IMG/VR virus record: IMGVR_UViG_3300037010_004170
Location: 1 to 32,614 of that record
DNA from: a virus
Direction: 5' to 3' (one strand)
Length of the DNA stretch: 32,614 bases
This document shows positions 5,005-30,261 of this stretch, one piece after another; the first letter of the stretch is position 1; each line of letters opens with the position of its first letter. A program made the translations under genes and the position numbers. The notes below the pieces were generated by a model, which was given only the letters and a program-made list of their open reading frames with translations, did no database searches and was not told the origin of the DNA.

Positions 5005-5008
5005 GGCG

Positions 5009-5809: not shown

Positions 5810-6392
5810 TGGGGCTCCCCTTCACGGCTTCCTCGAATTGCTTGAGGTAGGCGGTGGCCTTCCCGAGATCCTGGTTGTCGCTGGCCTGAAGGAAGAGATA
5901 CCCCGTGGCGCCAAGGTGCAAGGCCTGAAGAACACTGGCCGGGATGCGTGGATCCACGGGGTCCGTGTCCTGCCCCATCGGCAGAGGCGCCTCGATCACC
6001 TGGGCGCTGTACGTGGTGTCGGCCGGGACACGCCGATTGAGGCGGAGCATGTTCCCGGACTCCTGGAACCAGCCAGTCGGAATCCCCATGGCATCGCGCC
6101 AGGCTGGATTCATCAGGTCCTCAAAGGCCTCGGTCGTGGGAAGCAGGCGAGACAGGGTCATGGTGTTCCTCACATTCAGGACGAGCAGCGGGGTCGGGGT
6201 CAGGAGCAGGCCCGAAGTCCCAGAGGGCAACGTCACGTCAGCGGTCCAGTTCGAGCAGAAGCGAAGCAACATGGCCGCCTTCTGGGAGGCCCGGTCCAAG
6301 GCCTCACAGTAGTCGGCCCGGCTCCACTGGCCGGGCCAGCCCAGGCCCTCGGCCTGGAAGGTCGTGCGTTGCAGCACCTCACCCACCAGCAT
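5802..6392 (-). CDS. Head-tail adaptor-like protein
   Basis: The 196-residue product has an N-terminal helical segment (QWSRADYCEALDRASQKAAMLLRFC), a middle beta region (TLPSGTSGLLLTPTPLLVL) and a C-terminal helical part (SVLQALHLGATGYLFLQASD). The aromatic/acidic pattern of the first helix followed by a beta insert and terminal helices resembles podoviral connector proteins that dock beneath the portal (gp4/gp11-like, DUF6682-type). Its start codon shares one base with the stop of the preceding 80-codon gene (TGATG). The role is assigned from architecture and position between capsid and nozzle genes. Confidence 0.55.
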   Translation of the reverse strand: MLVGEVLQRTTFQAEGLGWPGQWSRADYCEALDRASQKAAMLLRFCSNWTADVTLPSGTSGLLLTPTPLLVLNVRNTMTLSRLLPTTEAFEDLMNPAWRDAMGIPTGWFQESGNMLRLNRRVPADTTYSAQVIEAPLPMGQDTDPVDPRIPASVLQALHLGATGYLFLQASDNQDLGKATAYLKQFEEAVKGSPNV

Positions 6393-6634
6393 CAGACCTC
6401 CAGCGAGAAGCGATGAAGTCCAAGGCCAGGATCGGCGAGCACCACCAGATTGGTTCCGGCAGGCACGGTTCCCACATGTTCAGCCGTAGTCAGGGCAGCC
6501 ATGCGGCAAGCCTCCGTCAGGGCCCACCGAATCGCCTGGTTCAGGTTCTCATCAGCGAACCGCTTGATGAGGGGATCCCCAATCGTCTTCCGCAGTTCAG
6601 CCCTGAGTTCTCCGAGGGTGGCCGGGGCAAGCAT
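6392..6634 (-). CDS. Small adaptor-like structural protein
   Basis: The 80-residue product reads LGELRAELRKTIGD, then FADENLNQAIRWALTEACRMA, then a short beta C-terminus (PAGTNLVVLADPGLGLHRF). The central FADENLNQAIRWAL pattern resembles the first helices of DUF6682-like head-tail adaptors, so this could be one short member or half of a split adaptor whose other half is the next gene. It sits 3 bases after the 246-codon gene and shares a base with the following start. No frameshift is evident. Confidence 0.5.
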   Translation of the reverse strand: MLAPATLGELRAELRKTIGDPLIKRFADENLNQAIRWALTEACRMAALTTAEHVGTVPAGTNLVVLADPGLGLHRFSLEV

Positions 6635-6637
6635 GGT

Positions 6638-7378
6638 TCACCTCACCCGGAAGTTGAAAGGGTTGGACCCCATCCGGCCGCCAAGGTCGCCCGACTGGCC
6701 GATCCGGTTCTGGCCCTTGAGGCGGCCACAGAGGTTGAGGGCTGCCGAACGCTGAGCCACGGCACGGCCCGGATCCCGCCCGCGGCCCTGGGCGTCCAGA
6801 ACTTCAGACAGGGCCATGGCCAGGAGGGCATCCTCGGAATCAGCAGGCAGGTCGGGGATCTCCATGAACTCGCTATCAGCGGTCGGCGCCACGACGGCGG
6901 TGGCCACCAGTTGATCTCGGGCCACTAGGTCCCAGCTCGGAGCCAGGAAGAGGTTTCCCATCCGATCCGAGTAGATCTCGGGAGTTCCGGGATCTGCGAT
7001 GCCGCCTCGGGCCAGGAGGAGAAGGTAGTCCTGGTAATCCAGACCGGACTTGGCTTTGAGGATGACGGGGGGCACGGTGGCATCCCCGTTCTTGCGGAGG
7101 GAAAGGCCCTCCCAGCGAAGCACCTCCAGATTCACGTCCTTGTCCCAGCCCTGGGCAATCCCGGCCGTAAGGGGCCCAGGCAGGAAGCGACAATCCCCGT
7201 AGGGGCCGGTTGCGATCTGGCTGGCCACCACGGTCTGGACGATGGGCATGGTGAGGAGGTGCGTCTCTCGAATCACCCGCCTTGCCGCCTTCTGCACCAG
7301 CAAGGTCACGCGCCGACTATCGGCGGTCAGGTCCGGGCGCTGCCCCAGGACCTCGGCAAGGAAGGGTTGGAGCTTCAT
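6638..7378 (-). CDS. Putative head-tail connector protein
   Basis: The 246-residue product starts MKLQPFLAEVLGQRPDLTA and has a Lys/Arg-rich first helix (VQKAARRVIRETHLLTMP). A mid-section (YQDYLLLLARGG, YSDRMGNLFLAPSWDL) and an Ala-rich helix (DALLAMALSEVLDAQGRGRD) follow, then a basic tail. This alternation is typical of phage connector or head-completion proteins, but no defined family is recognised. It starts 2 bases after the stop of the HeH-like gene. Assignment rests mainly on its place between the major capsid and tail genes. Confidence 0.5.
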   Translation of the reverse strand: MKLQPFLAEVLGQRPDLTADSRRVTLLVQKAARRVIRETHLLTMPIVQTVVASQIATGPYGDCRFLPGPLTAGIAQGWDKDVNLEVLRWEGLSLRKNGDATVPPVILKAKSGLDYQDYLLLLARGGIADPGTPEIYSDRMGNLFLAPSWDLVARDQLVATAVVAPTADSEFMEIPDLPADSEDALLAMALSEVLDAQGRGRDPGRAVAQRSAALNLCGRLKGQNRIGQSGDLGGRMGSNPFNFRVR

Positions 7379-7380
7379 GT

Positions 7381-7836
7381 CTACTCCCGGGGGTCCAGCG
7401 CCAACGGCGCGGCCAGGCCGGCATCAGCATAGGCCGCGGTCAGGAGGGCCTCTGTGACCTGGAGGCGCGTCTTGCCGTCCACGACCACCTGGTAGCTCTT
7501 CGCCAGGGCGCGGAGGGTCTGGTAGTGGAGCGCCTCAAGCGACTCCCGCGTCATGGGCTGCCCATCCTTGAGGGTGGGCACACTGGATTCCTTGTCGCCA
7601 CCCTTGCCCTTTACAGGATCCTTGACCTCGCGGGGGTCGTGGTCCAGCAGTTCCATCTGGTCCTGGTGGGCGTAGGCATAACGGACGTGGCGGCTCCAGG
7701 GGTCCTCCTCGCCGGGCTCCATCTGCCCAATGGCGAGAGATTCCGGGGTCATCACGAGACCCGTGATTTTGTTGCGGATGGCCTTGGTGCGCGCGGGGAG
7801 GTTGCCGAGGTCCGGCATCCCGTCGTCAATGGGCAT
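7381..7836 (-). CDS. Small head protein with HeH/SAP-like C-terminus
   Basis: I chose ATG 7836 (MPIDDGMPDLGN, 151 residues) because GGAG lies at a good distance upstream; a longer reading to 7929 would overlap the capsid gene. Residues 1-90 are polar and charged. Residues about 107-140 (LRALAKSYQVVVDGKTRLQV) match the short helix-extension-helix pattern seen in SAP/HeH/Rho-N domains (helix, xVxGKTK/R, helix). Similar mini-domains occur in proteins encoded beside phage coat genes. The function is unknown; a capsid-interior or packaging-related role is inference. Confidence 0.6.
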   Translation of the reverse strand: MPIDDGMPDLGNLPARTKAIRNKITGLVMTPESLAIGQMEPGEEDPWSRHVRYAYAHQDQMELLDHDPREVKDPVKGKGGDKESSVPTLKDGQPMTRESLEALHYQTLRALAKSYQVVVDGKTRLQVTEALLTAAYADAGLAAPLALDPRE

Positions 7837-7894
7837 GGTTTCTCCGATGGAGATGGGAGGGGCGGGGGGGCCGAAGCCCCCCCGCAGCTCACGT

Positions 7895-8809
7895 CTAGGC
7901 GATCTTGCAGGTCCAGAGGCCGATGCCATCCGGGTAGAGCGGGCCGAAGCCGAAGGTGTTCAGGGCGCGGATACCGTCGCCGTAGTAGTCCTGCAGCTTG
8001 ATGCCGGACTCCATTTCCGTGACCTGGCGACCGAAGCCGATGGCGCCGTTGAAGCCGGCCAGGCACTTGAAGGCGGAGGCAGTGGAGAGGCCATCGCCGG
8101 GGACGAACTCCGACACAACGATGTCGAAGCCGCAGACCTTGACGCCCCACTCACCATCCTCGATGGCCTTCTTGTTGCCCTCGCCATTGATGGAGAAGGT
8201 GGCCTGATCGGACTGAATCAGGATCTCCTCCACCTCGGGCGGGACCACCAGGAAGCGGCCCTTCTTGGGGGCGCGGCGCCGGTTGAAGGCGGTGCGGAGC
8301 TTGGCGATCTGCGCGATGGCGTAGGTCGCAGAACCCCGGGTGCCCGTGATGGCGCCGGTTCCGGTGAGGTCGATCATGTTGAGGGGGTTCATCGTCATCA
8401 AGGGCATGACGTTGAAGAAGACCTCAGCCTCCTTCTCTGCATGCTTCTTTGTGATGCTGTCTGCGATGCGCTGCATCACGGGCAGGCTGCCCAGCTGGGC
8501 CTTGTCCATCCTGTCGAGCCGGTGGGCCGCGCTGTACGCGAAGTCCACGCTGATCTGCCGTTTGTCGCCCTTCATGGACTGCCAGGCGATAGGCTGGTCC
8601 TTGATGTGCGGGACAACCGTGGCTTCGGGCTCGATGCGGAAGTTGATGATCTGGCCGACGTTCTTGATCTTGTCCAGGGTGCGGGTGTTGGTGATTCGGG
8701 GCAGGGGGCTCTCGGCGTACCAACGCTCGAGGAACATCCCGTCCCAGACCTCCTCGATCCAAGAATCCTGATTCAAGAGAGAGGCGGGATTCGTGCGTGC
8801 AATCGTCAT
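7895..8809 (-). CDS. Major capsid protein
   Basis: The 304-residue product has coat protein character: an N-arm (LNQDSWIEEVWDGMFLERWY), a beta region with paired charged residues (GQIINFRIEPEATVV), a long spine-like helix with VMQRIADSITKKHAEKEAEV, and a domain containing AKLRTAFNRRRAPKKGRFLVVPPEVE, where the last stretch is typical of the A-domain in HK97-fold coats. It is followed by a fit-to-class C-terminus (GFGPLYPDGIGLW). It lies ten bases downstream of the decoration-like gene and follows scaffold and portal, the usual order. Assignment is from family resemblance and gene order; no search was possible. Confidence 0.8.
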   Translation of the reverse strand: MTIARTNPASLLNQDSWIEEVWDGMFLERWYAESPLPRITNTRTLDKIKNVGQIINFRIEPEATVVPHIKDQPIAWQSMKGDKRQISVDFAYSAAHRLDRMDKAQLGSLPVMQRIADSITKKHAEKEAEVFFNVMPLMTMNPLNMIDLTGTGAITGTRGSATYAIAQIAKLRTAFNRRRAPKKGRFLVVPPEVEEILIQSDQATFSINGEGNKKAIEDGEWGVKVCGFDIVVSEFVPGDGLSTASAFKCLAGFNGAIGFGRQVTEMESGIKLQDYYGDGIRALNTFGFGPLYPDGIGLWTCKIA

Positions 8810-8819
8810 GTCGCGCCTC

Positions 8820-9383
8820 CTAGATCAGAGAGCCGTTGGCCAAGCTCGCTTTGAGCTCGGGCAGCATGTTGGTGAAGGGAATGATGACCTCGAAGATGCC
8901 GTCCACAGGGAGGTCGTTGGCCGCATCCACGGCCACGAAGCCAAGGATCAGGGCGTCGTCGGCCGTGTCATACGACACGGGCGTTCCGCTCAGGGCCACC
9001 GGGGTGAGCACCGTAGAAACGGTGCCGCCAGAGGCCTGCATCTTGATCGTGCCCGCCGCGGCAAACTTCGTCGCGGTGGTCGTGTCGCCCAGGGTGAACA
9101 CCTGGCCGGTGGTCTTGGCGGTTGCGGTGCTGCCGAGCTTGTTCGCCATGATCTTGCCCGACAGGAGGTTCATGCCTCGGCTGAGGGGGCAAATGGCGAT
9201 CTTGTCGGTGGCGGTGATGCCGACGCCAGAATTGGAAGCCTTGAAGGCCGCCAACGCCTTGGCGATGTCCACGGTGACTTTCATCACCGCGTTGATCGGG
9301 TCATGCTGGATCGTGGGCTTGTATGAGCCCGAAGCGGCAGCGGTGTACCCGGTCAGGGGGCCGATGAGAGAAATGCTCGCCAT
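8820..9383 (-). CDS. Capsid decoration-like protein
   Basis: The 187-residue product is small, Ala/Thr/Gly-rich and beta-prone (TGQVFTLGDTTTATKFAAAG, then GTIKMQASGG) with repeated short strands and no catalytic motifs. It sits directly before the major capsid gene and after the scaffold, the common place for head decoration or auxiliary coat proteins. GGAG lies six bases before ATG 9383. The decoration role is inferred from position and composition; a minor coat protein is equally possible. Confidence 0.5.
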   Translation of the reverse strand: MASISLIGPLTGYTAAASGSYKPTIQHDPINAVMKVTVDIAKALAAFKASNSGVGITATDKIAICPLSRGMNLLSGKIMANKLGSTATAKTTGQVFTLGDTTTATKFAAAGTIKMQASGGTVSTVLTPVALSGTPVSYDTADDALILGFVAVDAANDLPVDGIFEVIIPFTNMLPELKASLANGSLI

Positions 9384-9407
9384 CGGGGTCTCCTTTCAGG
9401 TTGAGGG

Positions 9408-10535
9408 TTAGGGGTTGAGCGTCAGCGCCACGCGGCGCATCAGCTTTCCGAGCGCAACCGGATCGTGGGCAACGGCCGCCTTCATGCGGGAGAAGTCCAT
9501 TTGTTCCTGTTCGCTCAGGGGAGCCAGGGCGGCGGGGTCCATCTGGCCTCCTCCCACACCCGAGGGGCCCAGGCTGGGGGCGACTCGTGGAGCAGGAGGA
9601 GCGGCCGGCGCTGGAGGCGTCGTCTCCTGGTTGTAGAGGTCGAGCACGTAGATGATCGAAGCGGGGTCCGCGTTGGCAGAGTCCTGGAAAATGTCGCGGA
9701 TTGCCCCTTCCCGTAGCACGGGCGGTTTGGCATTCAGCCAGGCCTGGAACTTGGGGTCCGAAGTCCTGGCTTCCACGTCCGGATACTTGGCCTTCACCGC
9801 AGCCAAGACCCGTTCATAGCGATTTTCGTAGTCCGCCTCGGCTGTCGAAGCCCGCATCCCCTCAAAGGTCTGCTTGAGTTCGTGAATCGGCTGAACGGCC
9901 TGGTTGACCAGCTGGCCAGCCTGCTCCTGAACCATGGCGATCATGGCCTCATAAAGATCAGGGCTGGCTTTCCGCAGGGCCTCCACTCGCTCCGAGGCGA
10001 TGGAAGGCGCGGCCTGGACCGGCTTGGCAGGAGGGGCGGCGGTTTCTGCCAGGCGCGCCTCAAGCTGCTTGCTGAGTTCCTGCACCCTGGCGATCTCGCC
10101 ATGGAGCTTGGTCTGCAGGGCGGAGAGCTTGCGCTGCTCTTCGCGGACGCCCTCTTCTCGGCGAAGGATCCGCTGGTCCTGCATGGTGGCAGGGGCCGGC
10201 GGGGGGGCCTCGGGCGCCAGGGGGGCCGCCGGAGCGGGAGCTGCGGGTTCGGCGGGGGCGGCGGGGGTGGCGGCAGGGGCAGGAGCGGGGGCGGCGGGGG
10301 CGGCGGGGGCGGCGGGGGCGGCAGCAGGGTCGGGCGACGAAGAGGGCTGGCCCATGCTGGGGTTCGGGTTGCCGCCGAGTTTCGCCTGAGCCTCCGGCGT
10401 CAGATTGAAGTTCCCGTGCTCGTCGGGGATAACGCCCAGGTCTTTCAATCGCTTTCGGTTCTCTTCGCGCGCATCCACAGGAGCCTCCCTTGGCGAGTTG
10501 TCCCAGCGAGGGACCGCCTGTCCCTGTTTTTGCAT
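9408..10535 (-). CDS. Scaffold protein
   Basis: I chose ATG 10535 (MQKQGQAVPRW, 375 residues): the longer reading to 10601 would sit inside the preceding small gene, and GGTG lies just upstream. Residues about 60-115 are a long Ala/Pro linker (repeated PAAP units), followed by a coiled coil (RREEGVREEQRKLSALQTKL, then QELSKQLEARLAE). The C-terminus is helical and ends EQMDFSRMKAAVAHDP. Long helices, flexible linkers and position between portal and coat genes fit a P22-like capsid assembly scaffold. Sequence similarity alone would not prove it, since scaffolds diverge fast. Confidence 0.7.
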   Translation of the reverse strand: MQKQGQAVPRWDNSPREAPVDAREENRKRLKDLGVIPDEHGNFNLTPEAQAKLGGNPNPSMGQPSSSPDPAAAPAAPAAPAAPAPAPAATPAAPAEPAAPAPAAPLAPEAPPPAPATMQDQRILRREEGVREEQRKLSALQTKLHGEIARVQELSKQLEARLAETAAPPAKPVQAAPSIASERVEALRKASPDLYEAMIAMVQEQAGQLVNQAVQPIHELKQTFEGMRASTAEADYENRYERVLAAVKAKYPDVEARTSDPKFQAWLNAKPPVLREGAIRDIFQDSANADPASIIYVLDLYNQETTPPAPAAPPAPRVAPSLGPSGVGGGQMDPAALAPLSEQEQMDFSRMKAAVAHDPVALGKLMRRVALTLNP

Positions 10536-10539
10536 CTCA

Positions 10540-10782
10540 TCACACCTTGAACAAGTCCAAAAGTGATTGGATTTCCAAGAATCTTCCCTTGATCCTATCA
10601 ATCTGGGTCATGTCGGAAGCCTGGGCGCAATCCATCCGATGCGAGATCATGCGCTCATACAAATAACTTCTCACATCGGGATGCAAGCCTACGCTCTTCG
10701 CACGTTCTTCGTACTGCGTGACGATGTTCTGGTGGGCATCAAACGATATTTCGATGAGGGATGGTTTGGCTTCGTAATCCAT
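10540..10782 (-). CDS. Small protein between portal and scaffold
   Basis: The 80-residue product (MDYEAKPSLIEISFDAHQNI, then DVRSYLYERMISHRMD) is charged and helical with no recognised family. It starts 3 bases after the portal stop, with AAGGAGAA about eight bases upstream of ATG 10782, and ends 4 bases before the scaffold start. Tight spacing on both sides supports a real gene. It has no membrane segment or cysteine pairs. A virion assembly accessory role is inferred only from position. Confidence 0.65.
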   Translation of the reverse strand: MDYEAKPSLIEISFDAHQNIVTQYEERAKSVGLHPDVRSYLYERMISHRMDCAQASDMTQIDRIKGRFLEIQSLLDLFKV

Positions 10783-10785
10783 TTG

Positions 10786-12996
10786 CTATTCTCCTTCCTG
10801 GCCCGAAAGCCGGGTGGCATCCGGAGCGAGGGTTTGGGTTTCGGGCTTCTCGTTCGGACTCGCTCCATCGGATTGAGGCCCCATTCCAAGGGCGGGCTGG
10901 CCGTCCTGACCGGGCAGGGCCATGTTGGCCCCGCGGGGACGGTAGTCGGGGTCCAGGTCGAGGATCTTTTGTGGGTGGAAGCTCTGCATCACGGCAGACC
11001 ACTCCTGGCCCATGCCGGCCCCACCCTTGGCCAGCACGTCGGCCTGCATGTTCAGGGCCCAGGCCTGAAGGGCGATGTAGATCGCCGGCGTCATGGCGCC
11101 TTGCGCCTCCATGGCCTGCTGGAAGGTGGGACCCCATGCAGGGTTGCTGTCGTCCTTGATGGATCGGAGGATGGTGAGAAGCGCATCGGCGCGGCTGGCG
11201 CTGGCTCGGATGCCGTGGCTCACGGCTTGTTCAGCCAGGGTGGTCATGCCGGCCTTCATGGCTTCGTGCTGGCTCTCCAGCTGCATCTTCGCGGCCACCT
11301 GGTCTGGGCTCAACACGTACCCCTCGTCCTCCAGGCCCAGGGCAGGAAGAATGTCATAGAGGATCTTGGGGTTGTTTAGGTAGGGCGCCAGCTCTGGGTC
11401 TCCCGCGAGTTGCCGCAGGAGGCCAGCGTTCTGTGCAATCTGTTCCCGCCGCACCGCACCATAGACGCCCAAGGCCACCGGCTGCAGGTCGCCCTTCACG
11501 GAGTCGTCCTTCCCGTACCCCATTTCCCAGTTGAAGAGGCGGCCGATCCAGACCACCCAACCGAACTCATCGTTGTTCCCCACCACATTCCGGATGAACC
11601 CTTCGGCTGTGGAGTAGGCCCGGGTTTGCATGCCGTCCGTCCGTACCCCGCTGCCCATGGCGCCCGGGTTCTCCACCACCGGCATGCTGGACACCACCGG
11701 CATCAGGCTCTCGAAGAGCTGCCAGGCCTGCAGGATCTGGCCGGAATTGTTGGGGGGGAGGTAGAAGTCCACCGCCCGCATGCCCTTGGCCAGTTCGTTC
11801 GGACGCTTCAGCCAGGTCTTCCCGGCTTTCCAGCGGGGGTCGGTCCCGGGATCCAGCTGGGTCATGTCCAGTTCCACCTGGGGAATCGAGGAGTCCGCCA
11901 GGTTGTTGTGGAGAGCCCGGCCCAGGGCATTCTCCATGATCTGAATGTCTTCTACGTGCTCAGCCACGCCGGAGCCATAGATTGACCCGTCCGCCTGTTC
12001 ATAGGGGATCCAGTCGAACGGAAGCTCGTGCTCATACATGGGATCCACGAAGAGCGCCAGCGTGAAGGGGCCGCAGGTCCAGCTGGAGACGAAGCCCGTG
12101 GTCGTCTCGTCGAGGCCCCATTCCTCCTGCTTGTCCTGGTCCACGAGACCCCACCGCTCGTACACCGCCCAGCGGGGTTCCTTGGGCGTTTGGAATGCCA
12201 GCTCGGTTTCCCAGTACTCGCGGACGTAGTTCCCCTTCGGCAAGGCCTGGAGAAGAAGGTCAATCTGCGTGGGGTCGAATCCCTGGACGCGACCCAACTC
12301 CACCAGCTGCTTCCGGTTCAGGACGCGGCGCCAGATCGCAGAGGCTACCCGCTCCTTCTTGGCCACCATGGGGTCGGTATAGAGCTCCCAGATTGGAACA
12401 TGCTGAATGTCGGGGCGAACCTCCTGTGGAAGGGTGATGCCGCGGATTCGGGCCCATGCCGGATTGGGGTCGGTCACGCCTACGGGGCCGTAGGTGATGC
12501 CAGTTCCGAAGAGGCACTCATCCCAGACCACATAACGCAGGGTCTTGTTGAACTGCATGTTGGCCAGGTGATCCCGGATCGCCTGGCGCATCCCAGCCAC
12601 GGCTTGTTTGGGATCGGTTCCGAAGGGGTTCTGGGGCCTGGGGCTGACGCGAAGATCCCAGGGATCGCCCACCATGGGCAGGATCAGCTTCATCAGCTTG
12701 GTGAAGGCCGTGCTCACGCGCTCTCGGGTTCGCTTGATGAACAGGTCCGACTGGCCTTCCTGGGCCGTGAACTCCTCGCCATAGATGCCCAGGAAGTGCC
12801 GCCTGAAGCGCACCCACCGCTTATGCAGGGGCGTCATGCAGGTCTTGAAAAAGGCGAACTCCTCCTCCACGAAGCCGGCGAGGCCCGGGGCGCGGGAGAG
12901 CAGGACGAGGGTTGGGTCCGCCTGGGGTGCTTCCACCTTGGGAGCCTGGGGGGCCAGGAGAATGTCGGGTTTCCCGGGTCGGATTTGAACAAGCAT
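10786..12996 (-). CDS. Portal protein
   Basis: The 736-residue protein has the size of P22-like portals (about 725 residues). It contains AFFKTCMTPLHKRWVRFRRHF near residue 50, then a wing-like region and DECLFGTGITYGPVGVTDPN near residue 170. The motif DGSIYGSGVAEHVEDIQIMENALGRAL near residues 340-370 is characteristic of the helix and tunnel-loop region of podoviral portals. The C-terminus is low complexity (GQDGQPALGMGPQSDGASP). The ring would form the DNA entry vertex and dock the terminase and adaptors. It starts 2 bases after the terminase stop. The assignment is secure as a portal; the P22-like subclass is inference. Confidence 0.85.
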   Translation of the reverse strand: MLVQIRPGKPDILLAPQAPKVEAPQADPTLVLLSRAPGLAGFVEEEFAFFKTCMTPLHKRWVRFRRHFLGIYGEEFTAQEGQSDLFIKRTRERVSTAFTKLMKLILPMVGDPWDLRVSPRPQNPFGTDPKQAVAGMRQAIRDHLANMQFNKTLRYVVWDECLFGTGITYGPVGVTDPNPAWARIRGITLPQEVRPDIQHVPIWELYTDPMVAKKERVASAIWRRVLNRKQLVELGRVQGFDPTQIDLLLQALPKGNYVREYWETELAFQTPKEPRWAVYERWGLVDQDKQEEWGLDETTTGFVSSWTCGPFTLALFVDPMYEHELPFDWIPYEQADGSIYGSGVAEHVEDIQIMENALGRALHNNLADSSIPQVELDMTQLDPGTDPRWKAGKTWLKRPNELAKGMRAVDFYLPPNNSGQILQAWQLFESLMPVVSSMPVVENPGAMGSGVRTDGMQTRAYSTAEGFIRNVVGNNDEFGWVVWIGRLFNWEMGYGKDDSVKGDLQPVALGVYGAVRREQIAQNAGLLRQLAGDPELAPYLNNPKILYDILPALGLEDEGYVLSPDQVAAKMQLESQHEAMKAGMTTLAEQAVSHGIRASASRADALLTILRSIKDDSNPAWGPTFQQAMEAQGAMTPAIYIALQAWALNMQADVLAKGGAGMGQEWSAVMQSFHPQKILDLDPDYRPRGANMALPGQDGQPALGMGPQSDGASPNEKPETQTLAPDATRLSGQEGE

Positions 12997-12998
12997 GG

Positions 12999-14447
12999 CT
13001 AGAACCCCTTCATGCAGGTCTTGAGGTGGAAGGTCTTAACGACAACCGGGCGGCGGAAAGCGGAGGGCGGGCGAGCGCGGGAGAGCATTTGGATTCCGTA
13101 GCCCAGCGTGTCGGGGTAGTCGTCGTTCACTTCGGGCAGCTTCCCCTTCTTCGTGTAGGCGTAGCCCTGGACCTCCTCGAAAAGCACGGGGTCCAGGTCA
13201 TCGAAGAACCAGAGGGTTCCTTCATCCAGGCGCTTCTGCACCATGTCGTTGCGGATCTGGGGCGTCCGGGGAGCGTTCACGATGGCGCGCTCCTCGGGGG
13301 GGACGGATTCCCAGCCTGGATGCAGGTCATTCAGATACGTGTGCAGGAGCTTCTCGCCATTGGCTCGGTCTGGCTGTTCCGCAGAGGGATCCCCGAAGAA
13401 CTGGATCCCCTTCTCCCACCAGGGCCGCATGATCTTGACGATCTGCCAGTACTTCGTCTCGGTGAAACGCCAGGCTCGCTCCACGAACACATCGTCCGTG
13501 CGGGGATCCTTGGCCAGGATCACGAGGCATGTGGGATGCGTCCAGCCGTAGTCAATGGCGCCAAGGCGGGGCCAGGCTGGGGGGATCTCGAACCGAGGGA
13601 TTCGGAACTCGCTCCAATTCGCGTTCCAGACGAGGCCTGTGTTCACATCCGGCAGGCCATAGAGGCGCGCCTTGAGGGCGGCCGGGTCGTTCTTGAGGAG
13701 CCGCTTCCACTTCTCGATGTGGCCTGGGCCCAGGTGGGTCGCCTCCTCGGCCGACAAGAGGAACACACCCACGTCCGGGTTGTCTTCCCAGAGGGTCTTG
13801 ACCACCTTCGTCTTGCCCTTCAGGGGGGTGAAGCAGATTGTCGTGTAGCCGTCCCCCTTCTCGGCGGCCTCCGAAATACGCATCATCAATTCCTGCCACT
13901 CCTCCCAGGGTGGCTCCTCGTCAATCAGGAGGCGCTGGATGGTGGCGGACTGGAGGCCGACGCGGCCCTGGGCGTAGTTCTTGAAGGCACAGGCTGACGT
14001 GCCACCGGACACATGGGGCACCAGGAAGTAGTCGATGGCCCCACCGCCGTTCTGCTTGTACACGGGCTTCGATTTCAGGTAGCGTCGGGAGAGGATGCCG
14101 CCCTTGCCGGGGTTGTACAGGTCTGGTCCCAGGAGCTTCTTCTGCAGGCCGTCTCGGGTCAAGTCCGAGGTCTCACCCACGATCCAGGCATTGATGGCCG
14201 TCAGGGTGCGGGGGCCCTCATACCATTCGGGGTAGATGCCCGTCAGATCCCAGGCCATGCGCCGCAGGCCGGTGACGGATTTTCCCGCCTGGTTCGCCCC
14301 GAAAAGCGCGGTGATCTGATGGGAGCTCTGGCATGCGTCCTTCTGGGAGGGGTAGATCGTGGGCCAATAAACGAGGGCCTGGTCCTCCCGTCGGCGCTCC
14401 AGTTCCGCCATGGCCTCCACGGTCTCCTGGAGAATCTCGATGCTCAC
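12999..14447 (-). CDS. terL: Terminase large subunit
   Basis: I start at GTG 14447, which overlaps the stop of the membrane gene (GTGA), giving 482 residues. Residues 50-57 are the Walker A motif (GANQAGKS) and 172-180 the Walker B (RLLIDEEPP with catalytic acids). The C-terminal nuclease has DYGWTHP around D299 and FFGDPSAEQ around D353, the acidic residues of an RNase H-like metal site. It pumps DNA into the prohead and cuts concatemers. The longer N-terminal reading (to 14567) lacks a typical start and overlaps two genes. Confidence is high. Confidence 0.93.
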   Translation of the reverse strand: MSIEILQETVEAMAELERRREDQALVYWPTIYPSQKDACQSSHQITALFGANQAGKSVTGLRRMAWDLTGIYPEWYEGPRTLTAINAWIVGETSDLTRDGLQKKLLGPDLYNPGKGGILSRRYLKSKPVYKQNGGGAIDYFLVPHVSGGTSACAFKNYAQGRVGLQSATIQRLLIDEEPPWEEWQELMMRISEAAEKGDGYTTICFTPLKGKTKVVKTLWEDNPDVGVFLLSAEEATHLGPGHIEKWKRLLKNDPAALKARLYGLPDVNTGLVWNANWSEFRIPRFEIPPAWPRLGAIDYGWTHPTCLVILAKDPRTDDVFVERAWRFTETKYWQIVKIMRPWWEKGIQFFGDPSAEQPDRANGEKLLHTYLNDLHPGWESVPPEERAIVNAPRTPQIRNDMVQKRLDEGTLWFFDDLDPVLFEEVQGYAYTKKGKLPEVNDDYPDTLGYGIQMLSRARPPSAFRRPVVVKTFHLKTCMKGF

Positions 14448-14599
14448 CGGGCACCCCCGAGAAGCAACAGCCCCACGAAGAGGAACCAGGTCGTGCCCAG
14501 CCAAAGGGCCGTCATCTCCACCAGGAAGAGGATCCGCTGCTTCCTTCGCCGCTCCTGAGCCAACCATGCGGCCCGGTGGTTGTCCTGCAGGGGCCTCAA
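14444..14599 (-). CDS. 51-residue single-pass membrane protein between terminase genes
   Basis: From TTG 14599 the frame encodes about 21 polar, basic residues (LRPLQDNHRAAWLAQERRRKQ) followed by one hydrophobic segment (VEMTALWLGTTWFLFVGLLL) and a short tail. The start overlaps the small terminase stop (TTGA) and the stop overlaps the large terminase start (GTGA); GAGG lies 7 bases upstream of the TTG. Such double coupling supports translation. The charge distribution places the basic N-terminus in the cytoplasm. It could be a holin-type or accessory membrane protein, but there is no family evidence, so the role is open. Confidence 0.6.
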   Translation of the reverse strand: MRPLQDNHRAAWLAQERRRKQRILFLVEMTALWLGTTWFLFVGLLLLGGAR

Positions 14600-15309
14600 G
14601 TGTCCGCCTCGACGGCTGCCAGCTCGCCCTCGATGGCCTGCTGCTGCCGGGCGGCGAGGACCATGGCCTGCACTTCGGCCACCTTCTCGGGCGGGAGGAT
14701 CTGCTTCAGGCGAGGGGCCAGCTGCTCCATCATGGCCGGTGCGGCGAGGAGCCCAGCGACGATGCGGTTGATGAGGTCCCGCTCGCTGGCGTTGGCCAGC
14801 GGATCCGCCAGGTCTGGCGTCTCCCCCTTCTCGGACCACTTCTTCCGGTCCAGCCGTTCGGCCATCCAGTTGCATTGCTTGATGTAGAGCTCGTCGCCCT
14901 TCACCCCAACCATGTCGCCCCCGCCTGCGCTCCGGGCCCGGGCCTGGGCGTTGTCCGCCATGACCAGGGCCTGGCATTCCTCGGCCAGCTTCCTGGCCTT
15001 CTGCCATTCCGGGTTGTGGTTGATCCAGCCCACCAGGGTCGGAAGGCTGGGCATCCCGGGCTTCGCGCAAATGAATGGGAGTCCTCGTTCGCCTGTGGCC
15101 AGGGCGTCCAGGGCATAGGCCACCACCTGGTTCTTGGTCAGGGTCTTCCCCTCCACCGTCCAGGTCTTTCCGCCCAGCTCCCGGCGGTCCAGCCGCTGGG
15201 CTAGGGTCAGGTCATCCGGGCCCTCCAGCCGATGCCGCAGGCGCAAGGCCGTCCGGGCCTTCTCCACCAAGGTCCGTGCCCGCATCGCATTCTTCGCTGG
15301 CGCCTGCAT
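14596..15309 (-). CDS. terS: Terminase small subunit
   Basis: From ATG 15309 the product is 237 residues. Residues about 85-110 (ERGLPFICAKPGMPSLPTLV, then GWINHNPEWQKARKLA) match the helix-turn-helix of phage small terminases (GxxLxxIxxxxGMPSxxTVxxWL). The N-terminal half is basic and the C-terminus helical, fitting oligomerisation. It recognises phage DNA for packaging. The gene overlaps the winged-helix gene by about 98 bases in another frame; ATG 15285 is an alternative start with weaker support. It is coupled to the 51-codon gene. Confidence 0.8.
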   Translation of the reverse strand: MQAPAKNAMRARTLVEKARTALRLRHRLEGPDDLTLAQRLDRRELGGKTWTVEGKTLTKNQVVAYALDALATGERGLPFICAKPGMPSLPTLVGWINHNPEWQKARKLAEECQALVMADNAQARARSAGGGDMVGVKGDELYIKQCNWMAERLDRKKWSEKGETPDLADPLANASERDLINRIVAGLLAAPAMMEQLAPRLKQILPPEKVAEVQAMVLAARQQQAIEGELAAVEADT

Positions 15310-19747: not shown

Positions 19748-19890
19748 TGCCGCCCTACCTCGTCATGACCACGATTGCCGTGGTGTTTTTCCTTGCTGGA
19801 ACCCTCAAGCGTCGGCCCCTTCTGGGGCTGGCGCTGGGGCTTCTGGCCGCCTCTGCCTTCTACTTGGGCCTCGTCGGCCCCACCCCATGA
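19747..19890 (+). CDS. Small two-span membrane protein between ERF and exonuclease
   Basis: ATG 19747 (or the adjacent ATG 19744) overlaps the ERF-like stop (ATGATG), with GAGG 5 bases upstream. The 47-48 residues are hydrophobic in two segments (YLVMTTIAVVFFLAGTL and LLGLALGLLAASAFYLGLV) separated by KRRP, so a hairpin with its basic loop in the cytoplasm is likely. The stop overlaps the exonuclease upstream ATG (ATGA). The function is unknown. Confidence 0.5.
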   Translation: MPPYLVMTTIAVVFFLAGTLKRRPLLGLALGLLAASAFYLGLVGPTP

Positions 19891-19898
19891 GGAACACC

Positions 19899-20909
19899 AT
19901 GATCCACAGCTTCATCCCCAACAACCGGGAGGCCTGGCTGGCCGTTCGGCGCCAGTACATCACCGCTACGGACGTCGTGGCCATCGAGGGCCTGTCGTCC
20001 TTCGCCAGCGCCCACGAGGTTCTGCTTGACAAGAAGGGCCTCCTGCCCAGAAAGCCGGGCAACCGGGCCATGGCCATCGGCAACCTCCTGGAGCCGCTCA
20101 TCCGGGCGGAGTTCGCCCGGAAATACGACGTGCAGGCCTGGGAGAGCCAGGGCGAACGGATCTACTGCGACGACGCCCGTCACCTGGCGGCTACGCCGGA
20201 TGGGCTCTTCCTTCAGGGCGAAGACCGCCTGATTCTGGAGATCAAGACCTCCATGAACAACTGGCGGGAGATCCCGGCCCGGGTGCTCCTCCAGGTGAAG
20301 CATCAGGCCGTGCTGGGAGAAGCCAGCAAGGGCTTCATCGCTCACCTTCATGTGCCCGAGGAGGCCCAGGAGGAGATCCTGGTCCGGGCCGCCCTGGGCC
20401 AGCCCCTCAGCCTGGAGGGCCTGGGCGCCATCGAGACCTATCCCTTCTCCTTCGCGGTGGAGGACCTCGAAGCTCACGCCCAGCGTTATCACGTCTGGTA
20501 TGAGAACCACATCCTCTTCGGGGCGCCGCTGCCCGAGCAGATGCCCAGCCCCAAGCCGGAGCTCACCCAGAGCGTGAGTGATGACCAACTGGTGAGCGCC
20601 TGGTTCGAAAAGAAGCGCCTGGCCGACGAACACGAGGAGCAGGCCAAGGCCTACAAGGCCCAGAGGAAGGAGATCGAGGACCAACTGGTGGCCCTCTATC
20701 CCGATGCCAAGAAGTTCCTGGGCGGCGGCAACGCCGTGTCCCGGTCGTTCACCGCCGGGGCGATGAAGGTGGACAACGAAGGCCTGTTGAACGCCATCGT
20801 CCTCAAGCATCCCGAACTCAACCCCGAGGTCCGCTCCCTGGAGCCGAACTTCATCACCTATGGGTCCGGCTATTCGCGCTGGATCCCATCCAAGAAAAAG
20901 GAGGCATGA
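19899..20909 (+). CDS. YqaJ-type recombination exonuclease
   Basis: ATG 19899 has GAGG six bases upstream, giving 336 residues; ATG 19887 is an in-frame alternative. The PD-(D/E)XK nuclease fold shows E65 in GNLLEP, D101 in ATPDG, and E114/K116 in LEIKTS, the expected metal-site residues. LLQVKHQAVLGE follows as usual for YqaJ. The enzyme resects DNA ends 5' to 3' so that a partner annealase can load, here the adjacent ERF protein. C-terminal residues are helical and charged. It ends within the start of ERF. Confidence 0.88.
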   Translation: MIHSFIPNNREAWLAVRRQYITATDVVAIEGLSSFASAHEVLLDKKGLLPRKPGNRAMAIGNLLEPLIRAEFARKYDVQAWESQGERIYCDDARHLAATPDGLFLQGEDRLILEIKTSMNNWREIPARVLLQVKHQAVLGEASKGFIAHLHVPEEAQEEILVRAALGQPLSLEGLGAIETYPFSFAVEDLEAHAQRYHVWYENHILFGAPLPEQMPSPKPELTQSVSDDQLVSAWFEKKRLADEHEEQAKAYKAQRKEIEDQLVALYPDAKKFLGGGNAVSRSFTAGAMKVDNEGLLNAIVLKHPELNPEVRSLEPNFITYGSGYSRWIPSKKKEA

Positions 20910-21559
20910 TGCTCCAGCACACCGAAAGCATCGCCGCACTCAGCGAGGCCATCGCGCTCGCCCAGGCCGAAGTGGAGAACGCCACGAAGGGCTCGGTGAA
21001 CCCGGCCTTCAAGTCCAAGTACGCCGATCTGGCAGAAGTGCTCAACACGGTTCGGCCGGTCTTCTCGAAGCACGGCATCGCCATCACCCAGCACCCGCAG
21101 CTGGACAACGGGGTGGTCACGGTGACGACACTTCTCTCCCACAAGAGCGGAGAGTGGATGGCCTCCGACTGCTCCGCGCCCGTGAGCAAGCATGACGCCC
21201 AGGGAGTAGGCTCGGCCATCACCTACTGCCGCCGCTACGCCCTGGCCGCCCTGACGGGCGTTGCCCAGGAGGACGACGATGGCAACAGCGCCGTGGGCAA
21301 TGCCGCGAAGGGCGGATCCGGGCAGCAGGTAAGGCCCGCGATTCCTCTGCCTCCGCCGTCGGCCCTGGCTGCCGCCAAGGAACGCTACAAGGAAGCCAAG
21401 GAGAAGGCCTTCGCCAAACTCCTGACGACCATGGACGAGCCCACGGCCCGGGAGCACCTCGGCAACATCGAGAGCGCCACGGCCGAGCAGGAGAAGGATC
21501 CCGCCAAGCGCGCGGAACTCCTCATCGCGGCCATGATGGCCATCGTGAACCGGGCCTAG
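20909..21559 (+). CDS. ERF-family single-strand annealing protein
   Basis: ATG 20909 has AAGGAGG four bases upstream; ATG 20906 overlaps the exonuclease stop but is too close to the site. The 216-residue product contains KGSVNPAFKSKYADLAEVLN, then GVGSAITYCRRYALAALTG and QEDDDGN, the ERF superfamily hallmark. Its C-terminus is a charged helical region (KERYKEAKEKAFAKL). ERF proteins form rings on single strands and anneal complements. The upstream exonuclease would supply the strands. Confidence 0.9.
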   Translation: MLQHTESIAALSEAIALAQAEVENATKGSVNPAFKSKYADLAEVLNTVRPVFSKHGIAITQHPQLDNGVVTVTTLLSHKSGEWMASDCSAPVSKHDAQGVGSAITYCRRYALAALTGVAQEDDDGNSAVGNAAKGGSGQQVRPAIPLPPPSALAAAKERYKEAKEKAFAKLLTTMDEPTAREHLGNIESATAEQEKDPAKRAELLIAAMMAIVNRA

Positions 21560-26271: not shown

Positions 26272-26483
26272 CCTGGCATTGGGATGAGGGCTGGGAGAAG
26301 GCGCATGCTCGGGTGATGGGTGAGGACGGGGCCCTCTGTGGATTCATCCCTGAACGACCACCCATGATGCGCCCCCCGTTGATGGAGGCACGTTGCCGCG
26401 CCTGCCTGGAGAGGCTGGGAAACGCCGTATCGGTGTTCCCCAACCTCTACCGGCCGACCAGCCTGGGCGCGACCCAGGACTAG
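26226..26483 (+). CDS. Small Cys-containing protein, last plus-strand gene before helicase
   Basis: ATG 26226 has GGAGG 4 bases upstream (85 residues). The product contains VTWHWDEGWEKAHARVM and ends with RCRACLERLGNAV, a CxxC-like pair. No family is recognised. Its stop codon overlaps the stop of the opposing helicase gene, so the two transcripts converge with no space for a terminator. Confidence 0.6.
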   Translation: MASAIGPRGVQPARVTWHWDEGWEKAHARVMGEDGALCGFIPERPPMMRPPLMEARCRACLERLGNAVSVFPNLYRPTSLGATQD

Positions 26484-27850
26484 GCTCTTCGCGTGAGCTG
26501 AGGGGCCGCTGCGGTCGTCCGGTCCATTTCCCGGTAGCGGAACGAGGGACCGTCAAAGTGCAGATTGATGCTGCCGAGGCGGCCATCCCGCTGCTTGGCC
26601 ACGATGAGCTCGGCGGCTGAATCCTCGGCCTCGCCTTCCCGCAGCGCGACCATGCGCCGATGAATGAAGGCCACCAGGTCGGCATCCTGTTCGATGGTAC
26701 CGGAATCCCGCAGGTCGGACAGCTGGGGGCGGCCATTCTGGCGATGCTCCACCTCCCGGTTCATCTGGGAGAGCAGGAGAACCGGGAGGCCCAGGTCCTT
26801 CGCTAGCAGCTTCAGGCCACGGGTGATTTCTCCGATCCGGACCGCCTCGTTCTGGACCTTACCCCGCTCCGGGGAGGACAGCAGTTGCAGGTAGTCCACG
26901 GCCACGAAGTCCAGGCGCCCCTCCTTGGCGATGATCCGTTCCGCCTGGGCACGGATCTCCCGTACCGTGATGGTGGCTCGATCCGCGATGAAGATAGGCA
27001 GATCCGCCACCTCGGCCTTGGCCTGGGCAATCCGATCTACTACGTCCTGGTCGTACCCGTTGGCGATGGCTTCCTTCAGGTTGATCTGGCCATGCGTTGA
27101 GACCAGTCGGCCAAGAACCTCCTCCTTCGACATTTCCAGGATGAAGGCGGCGCAACGGTTCCCCCGCTGCGCCATGTATAGCAGCCAATTCAGGAGGAGG
27201 GCGGTCTTGCCAATGCCGGGCCGGGCCGCCAGGACAATGAGGTTCCCAGGTTTGAAGCCCTGGGTCATCCGGTCAAAACGACTGAACCCCGTCATCAACC
27301 CCTTGGGGGTCCGGCCATCCATCCGTGCCACCAGGTCCGCCATCCAGTCGTCTGCGAACTCGTAGACCTCCTGGAGGTTCCCCTTGCTCCGTGTCTGGAC
27401 GAGGGCGGTAAGCCCCCGGGAGGCCTCTTCCACGAGGGCGGCCGGGGCCAGGTCCTCCGCTGCCGCACGGCGCGCCAGCTCCATGCCCAGGTGGACAAGC
27501 CGACGGAAGCTGGCCTTCTCCCGAAGATGCTCCCCCAGCCGATGTGGCCGTCCCACGTCCTCCCCGGCCAGCAGCTCCACCAGGCCGGGGTACCCCCCCA
27601 CCAGATCCATCTTGCCCTGGTTCTCCAGGGCGATCTTCAGGGTGAGGGAGTTGACCTCCTCCCCTCGCCCCAGGAGGTGTAGCAGGGCCTCAAAGACGGC
27701 CCGGTGGGCCGGATGGACGAAGACCTCGGGCGTCATGTCCAGGCAGCACTCCGCGGCCAGGGCCTCGGCGCCCGGGGCGCAGCAGGTCGCCAGGAAGGAT
27801 CGCTCGGCGTCCAGATCCTCTGGTAAGCGTTCAGGCAGCCACTCAGCCAT
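26480..27850 (-). CDS. dnaB: DnaB-type replicative helicase
   Basis: ATG 27850 has GGAGG 6 bases upstream (456 residues). The N-terminal domain carries MTPEVFVHPAHRAVFEALLH, typical of DnaB. The RecA-like domain has Walker A ARPGIGKTA (209-217), a FVAVDYLQLL Walker B, then LLLSQMNREVEHR and SDLRDSGTIEQDADLVAFIH, all conserved DnaB motifs. It unwinds the fork and would be loaded by the upstream protein, whose gene it overlaps by 8 bases. Use of a phage helicase suggests an autonomous replication system. Confidence 0.95.
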   Translation of the reverse strand: MAEWLPERLPEDLDAERSFLATCCAPGAEALAAECCLDMTPEVFVHPAHRAVFEALLHLLGRGEEVNSLTLKIALENQGKMDLVGGYPGLVELLAGEDVGRPHRLGEHLREKASFRRLVHLGMELARRAAAEDLAPAALVEEASRGLTALVQTRSKGNLQEVYEFADDWMADLVARMDGRTPKGLMTGFSRFDRMTQGFKPGNLIVLAARPGIGKTALLLNWLLYMAQRGNRCAAFILEMSKEEVLGRLVSTHGQINLKEAIANGYDQDVVDRIAQAKAEVADLPIFIADRATITVREIRAQAERIIAKEGRLDFVAVDYLQLLSSPERGKVQNEAVRIGEITRGLKLLAKDLGLPVLLLSQMNREVEHRQNGRPQLSDLRDSGTIEQDADLVAFIHRRMVALREGEAEDSAAELIVAKQRDGRLGSINLHFDGPSFRYREMDRTTAAAPQLTRRA

Positions 27851-28817
27851 GGAGGGCCTCCGCCAGCAGCGCGCCCGTTTCCTCGGCCACAGCTGAATTG
27901 ACCCGTTCCCGGGCGGCCGGAACGTACTCCTCCCACATCTTGAGCTCAGCACTCCAGAACTTCGGCAGGTTCACGATGCCGGAGGTGATGTTCTGCTCCT
28001 GATCGCGTTCCTGTTGATCCAGATACACGAAGAGACAGGTCTTCAGGATGCGGGGGGTCAGCTCCGGGTGATCCAGAAGGATCTCCTTCCAGGCCCTTCG
28101 TGTTTGCTCAGGAGTGCCTGGCAGGCAGCGTGACGACGAGCCATCCCGGTGCCGCCGCAGGGCGTTGCTCGGATAGCCCTTCCGGGCGGCTTGCATCTGC
28201 GCCTCGTGGTCATGGGTCCAGTCGAACTCCGCGATGGACAGCTCCCGGGCCTGGGCTGGCGTGATGACCCGCGACTTCCGTGGTTTCTTCACCCGGTCCC
28301 CAGCAGCAGCCAGAACCCCCTCGCCAGAGGGGGGGCTGAAAGAAGCTTTTTCTTTTGTACTAGAAGTACTTACTCCGTACGCGCGAGGGCGCGCGTCACG
28401 CGCGGGTTCCAGATCATGCGCGAGGGGCTCGGAAACCTGGACGAAACCTGGAGCTAACCTGGATGGAACCTGGCCGGTTTCGTCTAGGTTCTTTCCAGGT
28501 TTCGCGGGACGACCACCCCGGGCTCCATTTGCCCGGCGAGCATCATCGGCTTTTTCCTGCTGGAAGAGGAGCGCCTCGAGGGTGGAATCGGTGAGGCTCT
28601 CCCCGATGGCTGTGAAGAAGCCTTGCACCTGGTCCCACCAGCGAACCATGTCCGAGGCCTGGGCCTGGGCCAGCGCCGCCGCGGCGCGAGGATCGTTCGG
28701 CAGGTAGCCGTGGCGCAGGTAGCCCGCTCGGCAGCGAAGCACCAGGGCTTGAACCGGAAGGGGGGCCGCCGCCAGGTCGGGTTCCCCCAGGAAGGCGTAG
28801 AGATTTTTCAGATTCAT
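27843..28817 (-). CDS. Replication initiator or helicase loader (DUF1376-like)
   Basis: ATG 28817 (MNLKNLYAFLGEPDLAAAPL, 324 residues) was chosen by the domain start; a longer frame to 28916 lacks support. Residues 1-95 (YLRHGYLPNDPRAAAALAQA, then ARRANGARGG) resemble the DUF1376/YdaU domain in phage replication proteins. A low-complexity linker (100-180) overlaps the origin-like DNA. The C-terminal part has KEILLDHPELTPRILKTCLF and EQNITSGIVNLPKFW. Just upstream of a DnaB gene it fits an initiator/loader. The initiator role is inferred from the iterons within the gene. Confidence 0.65.
   Translation of the reverse strand: MNLKNLYAFLGEPDLAAAPLPVQALVLRCRAGYLRHGYLPNDPRAAAALAQAQASDMVRWWDQVQGFFTAIGESLTDSTLEALLFQQEKADDARRANGARGGRPAKPGKNLDETGQVPSRLAPGFVQVSEPLAHDLEPARDARPRAYGVSTSSTKEKASFSPPSGEGVLAAAGDRVKKPRKSRVITPAQARELSIAEFDWTHDHEAQMQAARKGYPSNALRRHRDGSSSRCLPGTPEQTRRAWKEILLDHPELTPRILKTCLFVYLDQQERDQEQNITSGIVNLPKFWSAELKMWEEYVPAARERVNSAVAEETGALLAEALHG
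28340..28504. other. Candidate replication origin inside the initiator gene
   Basis: An AT-rich tract (28340-28373, about 30 percent GC) with the palindrome GTACT-AGA-AGTAC lies next to four AACCTGG repeats starting at 28434, 28445, 28456 and 28467, exactly 11 bp apart. Three inverted versions start at 28473 (GCCGGTT), 28484 (CTAGGTT) and 28495 (CCAGGTT), also 11 bp apart. Three pairs are symmetric about 28473, forming a 63-bp imperfect dyad (28442-28504). An 11-bp period is not a codon multiple, so protein repetition does not explain it. Iterons plus an AT-rich tract in the initiator gene is the lambda-type layout. Confidence 0.65.
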
Positions 28818-29021: not shown

Positions 29022-29040
29022 CGTGTGGATGAACCATCAC

Positions 29041-29150
29041 ACGCACGTACGCAGAGACGTGCGCGTGTGTGTCTCCGTGGAGAGACGTACACATGGACGT
29101 GCGTACGCACGTACGCACACACACCCATGCGTACATGCGCTCATGTTGAT
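29041..29150. repeat. ACGTRCGCA-type repeat cluster, candidate centromere
   Basis: The motif ACGTACGCA or close variants starts at 29045, 29057, 29085, 29097 and 29109, with palindromic TGCGTACGCA and CATGCGTACATG elements around them and GAGACGT repeated at 29054 and 29082. Located right after the putative ParB-like gene, it looks like a partition site. Simple CA/GT runs could inflate the pattern. Confidence 0.5.
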
Positions 29151-29168: not shown

Positions 29169-29609
29169 TTAGTGCCGGTCGCGCAGCCGTTGGAGCATTT
29201 CCTCGGCCTTCTGGGGCCGGAGGGTGGGATCCACGATGAGGCCCAGGGCGATGTTCTGGAGCTCGGCAAAATGAATCCCCATGTCGTCCGCCAACTGCAT
29301 GGCCGCCGACCGAACCACGGGATCATAGAGGCTGTTTCCCGGGAGCCAGCCCCGGGCCCGGAGCGAGGCTCCCTTGGCGCTGCGCCCCTCGGAAAACCGG
29401 AAGGGCTCTGGCAGGGCTGGGGACGCATTTCGGGGCTCCTCGTCTCGAGGGGAGGCCGCCTGGAGGGGCGCGGCCGGCAAAGGAGCTTGCGCCTCCGCGG
29501 GGGCGGGCGCGGGGATTGTCCGCCGCATGGTGGCCGCGAAGTCCAGCTCCCCCTCCCGGACATGGGCCATGAGTCGGGCCCGTTTCTCCTCGAAGGTCTC
29601 CTTAGGCAT
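29169..29609 (-). CDS. ParA partner, possible centromere-binding protein
   Basis: ATG 29609 (MPKETFEEKRARLMAHVREG, 146 residues) overlaps the parA stop by 8 bases. The N-terminal helix and an Ala/Pro linker (PAPAPAEAQAPLPAAPLQA) lead to a C-terminal helical domain (YDPVVRSAAMQLADDMGIHF). No ParB domain is recognised, but plasmid partition partners are often small and divergent. Position after parA and beside the repeat cluster supports the assignment, which is inference. Confidence 0.55.
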   Translation of the reverse strand: MPKETFEEKRARLMAHVREGELDFAATMRRTIPAPAPAEAQAPLPAAPLQAASPRDEEPRNASPALPEPFRFSEGRSAKGASLRARGWLPGNSLYDPVVRSAAMQLADDMGIHFAELQNIALGLIVDPTLRPQKAEEMLQRLRDRH

Positions 29610-30261
29610 GTCGCCGCACCTTCTCCCGGGAGCCGCGGGTGGCCTCCAGGAAGCAAACCAGGTTCCGCATTTCCTCGGCACCTGTTGACTTCGGGGCGAA
29701 GTCCCAGACCGGGACGCCCGCCTCCACCGCCTCGGCGTATTCCTTCCGCTCCCACATGCGGCCGATGTACTCCCCCTTGTCGGAGGATTGAAGTGTGCCC
29801 ACGAAGATTTTGGCGACCTCGGTATTCCGGAAGAAGTTGCAAATGTAGAGCAGGGGGATGGGCTCCTGGCGGGCCGAACTCGCGTCCTTCACCGCGAGGT
29901 TCACGCGACCGATGGCGTAGACATCGTTGGGACCGGGGCGCGTGGGGCACAGCACGGCGTCGCAGGTCAGGAGGGCAACCTGGGTCAGGTAACTGGAGCC
30001 TGGCGGACAATCCAGCACCACGCTGCGGCCGTCCTTGCGGAGCTGAGCCACCAGATCGAAGACCTCCTCCGGGCTGGCGTCGTGCATTCGATGGGTGTCG
30101 AGGCCTGCCCGCAGGCCGAAGCGGGCGCTGTCCCCGTTCTGATCCAGGTCAATGAGGCTGGCGCCCAGGTGCGCCGCCAGGTGGACGGCCACGGTGGACT
30201 TGCCCACGCCGCCCTTGTAGTTGGCAACAGCCGTGACAAAAGGATTCGCTTTGAGCGTCAT
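29602..30261 (-). CDS. parA: ParA-family partition ATPase
   Basis: The 219-residue protein has the deviant Walker A KGGVGKST (16-23), LIDLDQNGD (36-44, Walker A') and VVLDCPPG, a Walker B. The small size (no N-terminal HTH) matches type Ib ParA. It moves DNA by ATP-dependent patterning on the nucleoid. AAGGTGG precedes ATG 30261. In phages, ParA proteins mark prophages kept as plasmids. A different role in DNA positioning cannot be excluded. Confidence 0.9.
   Translation of the reverse strand: MTLKANPFVTAVANYKGGVGKSTVAVHLAAHLGASLIDLDQNGDSARFGLRAGLDTHRMHDASPEEVFDLVAQLRKDGRSVVLDCPPGSSYLTQVALLTCDAVLCPTRPGPNDVYAIGRVNLAVKDASSARQEPIPLLYICNFFRNTEVAKIFVGTLQSSDKGEYIGRMWERKEYAEAVEAGVPVWDFAPKSTGAEEMRNLVCFLEATRGSREKVRRHA

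Follow-up and report, generated by a model that had tools for sequence, protein, structure and literature searches.

A general description of initiator-borne phage origins was reportedly given by Weigel and Seitz in 2006 (cited in PMC6669507). The arrangement is already known and found in many phages, and the locus described here very probably adds another example. In lambdoid and Stx phages, the origin lies midway along gene O and combines iterons with an AT-rich tract; in lambda, O dimers bind the iterons, each of which is a 19-bp imperfect inverted repeat (PMC7466680). The Rep protein of pSK41, 319 residues in length, binds four boxes located centrally in its own gene, in the part that codes for a linker (PMC5703833).

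The present locus lies in a 32,614-base IMG/VR record (the window, meaning the whole stretch of DNA that was analysed), which sits inside the 55,442-base contig IMGVR_UViG_3300035661_000078 of the same phage with 2 mismatches. It is composed of the following features:

27843–28817, minus strand: putative replication initiator P0002 (324 aa), an orphan gene with an array-bearing linker between its N- and C-terminal regions
26480–27850, minus strand: DnaB-type replicative helicase (DnaB_C, 263 bits; DnaB N-terminal domain; phrog_19)
28432–28473, plus strand: direct iterons, four exact AACCTGG cores (CCAGGTT on the gene strand) at 11-bp steps
28473–28503, minus strand: three inverted units at 11-bp steps, strong as bare DNA and moderate given the protein
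28442–28504: 63-bp imperfect dyad with arms 28442–28470 and 28476–28504, 23 of 29 positions paired, a 5-bp spacer and its centre at 28473
28340–28373: AT-rich tract that may act as the unwinding element, on the 3′ side of the array with respect to the gene, 10 of 34 positions G+C

The locus resembles the lambda/Stx origin in having iterons and a 3′ AT-rich tract in the middle of a putative initiator gene, in the order of its replication genes, and in iterons built from inverted half-sites. Unlike the 19-bp iterons of lambda, its units are single 11-bp half-sites, four pointing one way and three the other. P0002 also differs from the lambda initiator in giving no match to the Phage_rep_O profile (PF04492), and the phage carries its own DnaB. 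With the pSK41-type RepA_N proteins, P0002 shares a nearly equal length (319 versus 324 aa) and a comparable layout, in which an N-terminal domain of about 120 aa, DNA-binding in RepA_N and putatively so here, is followed by an origin-encoded linker and a C-terminal domain. It departs from them in the absence of a RepA_N match, in the sequence of the repeats and in the adjacent helicase gene.

Architecture of the repeat array

The AACCTGG cores occupy 28434–28440, 28445–28451, 28456–28462 and 28467–28473, with the exact 11-bp steps that a sequence-only reading of this DNA had described; the coordinates of that reading are also right. The direct units, which are GAAACCTGG-like, start on the plus strand at 28432, 28443, 28454 and 28465, and match at 9, 9, 7 and 8 of 9 positions, respectively. 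The inverted units lie at 28473–28481 (7/9), 28484–28492 (6/9) and 28495–28503 (9/9). Their number and their 11-bp spacing are as previously described, but they do not continue the grid of the direct units: they follow a grid of their own, shifted by 8 bp. The mirror symmetry about 28473 that had also been proposed is confirmed by the 63-bp dyad. As single-stranded DNA, the dyad could form a hairpin (DNA fold z −5.6).

The array is positioned at 0.36 of the P0002 gene, more than 300 bp inside it, between the parts encoding the helical N-terminal domain and the C-terminal region. No other exact tandem array of the window has a period indivisible by 3. The AT-rich tract falls within the lowest 0.04% or below of G+C content among the 34-bp windows of the 55-kb contig. 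Earlier placed alongside the array, this tract is real, but it lies about 58 bp away with a GC-rich stretch between, near the array rather than abutting it. The GC skew, suggested earlier as a check, shows no inflection at the array site.

The P0002 gene is located directly upstream of the DnaB helicase gene. The helicase ORF is open from 27952, and its likely start is the ATG at 27850, which overlaps the P0002 stop codon. In the collections searched, the only relative of P0002 is found in contig IMGVR_UViG_3300035661_000078, that is, in the same phage, and a terminase scan again gives this contig as its sole match. Elsewhere in the window, on the opposite strand, a recombination module at 19887–21559 (+) consists of a RecE-like/YqaJ exonuclease followed by an Erf-like annealing protein. 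A 192-bp tandem duplication at window positions 207–602 overlaps six exact CCATTGGTT 9-mers and represents a coding-phase repeat near the record end. Positions 4906–14838 of the 55-kb contig hold an ORF of 3310 aa, very large for a phage contig of this size.

Chance and coding constraints

In dinucleotide shuffles of the whole window (n = 300), three exact 7-mers on one grid appear in 1/300 and four in 0/300. Synonymous shuffles of the P0002 gene yield three gridded 7-mers in 0/20,000 cases, and recodings of the direct half that preserve the protein yield four CCAGGTT in 0/50,000. The peptide encoded by the array, QVPSRLAPGFVQV, is not repetitive. The direct array is explained neither by chance nor by the protein sequence and, because the shuffles and recodings fail to reproduce it and the encoded peptide is not repetitive, the array has been under selection, or was recently amplified, at the DNA level. 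The earlier statement that protein repetition cannot account for the 11-bp array is upheld by these recodings, and the array ignores the reading frame.

For the inverted half, none of approximately 200,000 random 66-bp segments of the contig compared with the left arm exceeds 17 of 29 paired positions, against the 23 observed, so that as bare DNA it lies far outside chance. When recoding preserves the amino acids and the direct repeats, however, 935 of 50,000 sequences (1.9%) pair at 23 or more positions; therefore, a single inverted copy out of the three is strong, and the full match is confined to the outermost copy (28495–28503). Under this protein constraint, support for the inverted half falls below that for the direct half.

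Arrays upstream of other phage dnaB genes

From 80 phage dnaB loci, 52 non-redundant loci with at least 1.2 kb of upstream sequence were scanned, an array being defined by a TRF value of at least 45 and a period of 8–30. Arrays are present in the 1.2 kb upstream of dnaB in 27 of the 52 loci, an upper figure that includes a few low-complexity coding repeats or arrays of only two copies. Inside dnaB they occur in 3/52 loci and downstream of it in 2/45, and shuffled survey sequences contain an array in 2% of cases. The periods are mostly 11–12 or 20–23 bp, corresponding to one or two helical turns, with 11 bp being common. In the 18 loci measured, the arrays are centred on 0.46 ± 0.07 of the gene length, and the 40 bp just 3′ of them show a mean GC drop of 0.11.

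Where whole loci were read, the array falls in a low-complexity linker of a gene next to or near dnaB. The array-bearing genes belong to the Phage_rep_O family (the lambda O family, L053), DUF1376, Phg_2220_C, and Lin1244_N with DnaB_2, some of them recognised initiator families, as well as to unnamed ones. The annotated initiator gene of Pseudomonas phage U2 likewise carries a 22-bp array in mid-gene. Helical-turn arrays just upstream of phage dnaB are thus common across several unrelated initiator families and, therefore, origins and initiators can be called from raw sequence, even for proteins without a known family.

The P0002 locus shares with the DUF1376, Phg_2220_C and Lin1244_N phage initiators (L017, L046, L083, L015 and others) the gene position upstream of dnaB, the array in the linker, a period of one or two helical turns and an AT-rich dip following the array. 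Those arrays are mostly unidirectional, and P0002 itself is weakly DUF1376-like, under the Pfam cut-off. The 11-bp step is not unusual in itself, as it is also found upstream of dnaB at the same position in L028, L046, L067 and L070. The size of the dyad had been singled out earlier as unusual. No other array in the set has a facing layout as complete as its 4+3 one, and this convergent layout is mildly unusual, but some inverted copies also occur in other arrays (L014, L026, L065 and L108), and the dyad is weaker than the direct array given the protein.

A scan of viral contigs with the CCAGGTT-array motif gives 9 matches, of which only one, L098 (IMGVR_UViG_3300020215_000152), is informative. 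In this different, unrelated phage, CCAGGTT recurs at 11-bp steps immediately behind a GGRP motif, as at the P0002 locus, and the gene that carries the array lies directly upstream of its dnaB and abuts it. The L098 product resembles Pseudomonas phage proteins annotated as replication initiation or replisome organizer protein. Unlike the P0002 array, the main array of L098 has three units only, each a near-palindrome, AACCAGGTT; the ORF is shorter, and no protein homology between the two putative initiators is detectable over their full length. Two scrambled-motif controls on viral contigs give 8 and 2 matches to 11-bp arrays as well. Because scrambled motifs find such arrays too, the number of matches is no evidence, and the L098 match is supporting, not decisive, and alone proves nothing. 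Further AACCTGG arrays with an 11-bp step lie in unrelated viral contigs, at 2790–2850 of L094 and at 486–514 of L091 and its near-identical contigs, and are not covered by an ORF of at least 100 aa.

The P0002 protein

P0002 consists of an N-terminal helical domain (residues ~1–105), the linker with the array and a C-terminal region (~186–324). Searches with P0002 against Pfam and PHROG, relaxed limits included, give no match; against DUF1376 (PF07120), the score is below the curated cut-off. Its N-terminus is weakly and collinearly DUF1376-like: residues 28–119 can be aligned to a DUF1376-like initiator profile (hhalign, 78%), and this alignment beats 5000 of 5000 shuffles, but another window frame scores 6.1 bits. 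The similarity is no more than suggestive. The full-length AlphaFold model is unusable (pLDDT 39). The model of the N-terminal domain is of moderate quality (pLDDT 74) and helical over residues 3–100; a fold search with it gives no structural match, and a PDB sequence search with P0002 gives no match.

The array as a probable replication origin

The array very probably represents the core of a lambda-type theta origin inside a putative initiator gene. This reading is favoured because the DnaB gene follows, the repeats ignore the reading frame, an AT-rich tract follows the array, and the same layout recurs in the survey. As in lambda, the iterons lie in an initiator-like gene, with an AT-rich tract 3′ of them, across the gap of about 58 bp, and the helicase gene directly downstream. 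The lambda-style origin within a replication gene that the sequence-only reading had put forward thereby emerges as the best-supported interpretation. Counting against it are the failure to find a P0002 homologue outside its own contig, the missing matches of P0002 to curated families and of its N-terminal model to known folds, the GC skew without an inflection, the gap between array and AT-rich tract, and the arrays recovered by the scrambled-motif controls. For a phage without close relatives in the collections searched, the locus supplies an origin and an initiator that are both probable.

In the proposed mechanism, the N-terminal domain of P0002 would bind the CCAGGTT units. Since the units are 11 bp, or one helical turn, apart, the bound copies of P0002 would be arranged on one face of the DNA, forming a wrapped nucleoprotein complex. 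The facing half-array could allow this complex to build from two directions or to loop. Strain, combined with direct contacts, would then melt the AT-rich tract at 28340–28373, and the C-terminal domain of P0002, directly or via a loader, would place the phage’s own DnaB on the melted DNA, so that replication would begin at the array. The array presumably falls where the gene encodes the linker because constraint on the protein sequence is lowest there. An unlikely extension of this model is that the mirror-symmetric 4+3 array forms a built-in bidirectional origin, with two facing initiator assemblies each loading one helicase; if this were true, the direction of the forks would be written in the orientation of the 11-bp half-sites.

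Alternative functions of the array

Further features upstream of the initiator gene bear on other functions of the array:

29602–30261, minus strand: ParA-like partition ATPase (219 aa; phrog_164, 3e-23; AAA_31, CbiA), two genes upstream of the initiator
29169–29609, minus strand: small ORF in the ParB/adaptor position, no family match
29037–29142: intergenic cluster of ACGTACGCA/TGCGTACGT repeats, direct as well as inverted, that separates the initiator gene from the par-like genes; a candidate centromere or operator

These genes raise the question of whether the array is the partition (centromere) site of the ParA system, bound by a ParB-like protein. Partition sites can also be iteron-like, as upstream of parM in phage B83 (PMC6669507). 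The array nevertheless lies within the initiator gene and near the AT-rich tract, the survey arrays track dnaB and the initiator gene, and the ACGTACGCA/TGCGTACGT cluster, separate from the iterons and directly behind the par-like genes, is the better candidate, which makes a centromere at the array quite unlikely. Iteron initiators often autoregulate, and the array could instead be an operator or copy-control site at which the initiator shuts down the operon that encodes it, without any direct role in starting replication. On the strand of the P0002 gene, a predicted sigma-70-like site lies just ahead of the gene (28832–28803), and the mRNA strand folds better than shuffles do (z −3.4). However, the array is placed far into the gene, away from this predicted promoter; all Rfam matches at the dyad and at the intergenic repeats are far below gathering scores, and terminator prediction calls none at the dyad. 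As the operator function also leaves the AT-rich tract and the survey unexplained, it is considered very unlikely. Coincidence, in the sense of a repetitive coding stretch with no function as DNA, draws on the 1.9% of same-protein recodings that reach the inverted half, but none reaches the direct half, an 11-bp step cannot encode a repeated peptide, and the position and context of the array fit the survey. It is highly improbable for the array as a whole, and for the direct array it is excluded.

The sequence-only reading had raised a telomere-resolution site as its own alternative, while noting that no protelomerase was seen. In favour of the dyad acting as such a site in an N15-like linear plasmid prophage are its length of 63 bp and the nearest named phage matches of the ParA protein, which include phiHAP-1, a phage with an annotated protelomerase. 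Against this, the dyad is imperfect and made of 11-bp units, the contig is continuous through it in both records, and the recombinase that is present is an ordinary 393-aa PF00589 protein. The absence of a protelomerase holds: the 55-kb contig, a record that may be incomplete, gives no match to the ResT/TelK-type family (PF16684), and the phiHAP-1 protelomerase used as a query gives a match at chance level only (E 5.3). The telomere-resolution site is therefore rejected, its probability being close to nil. Relative to all of these alternatives, the lambda-type origin remains the preferred reading of the array.

The ParA-like gene and the small ORF behind it suggest that the phage may persist as a plasmid (a phage-plasmid). 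However, besides ParA this phage also encodes the 393-aa tyrosine recombinase, integrase-like or dimer-resolving, outside the window at 19540–20721 of contig IMGVR_UViG_3300035661_000078.
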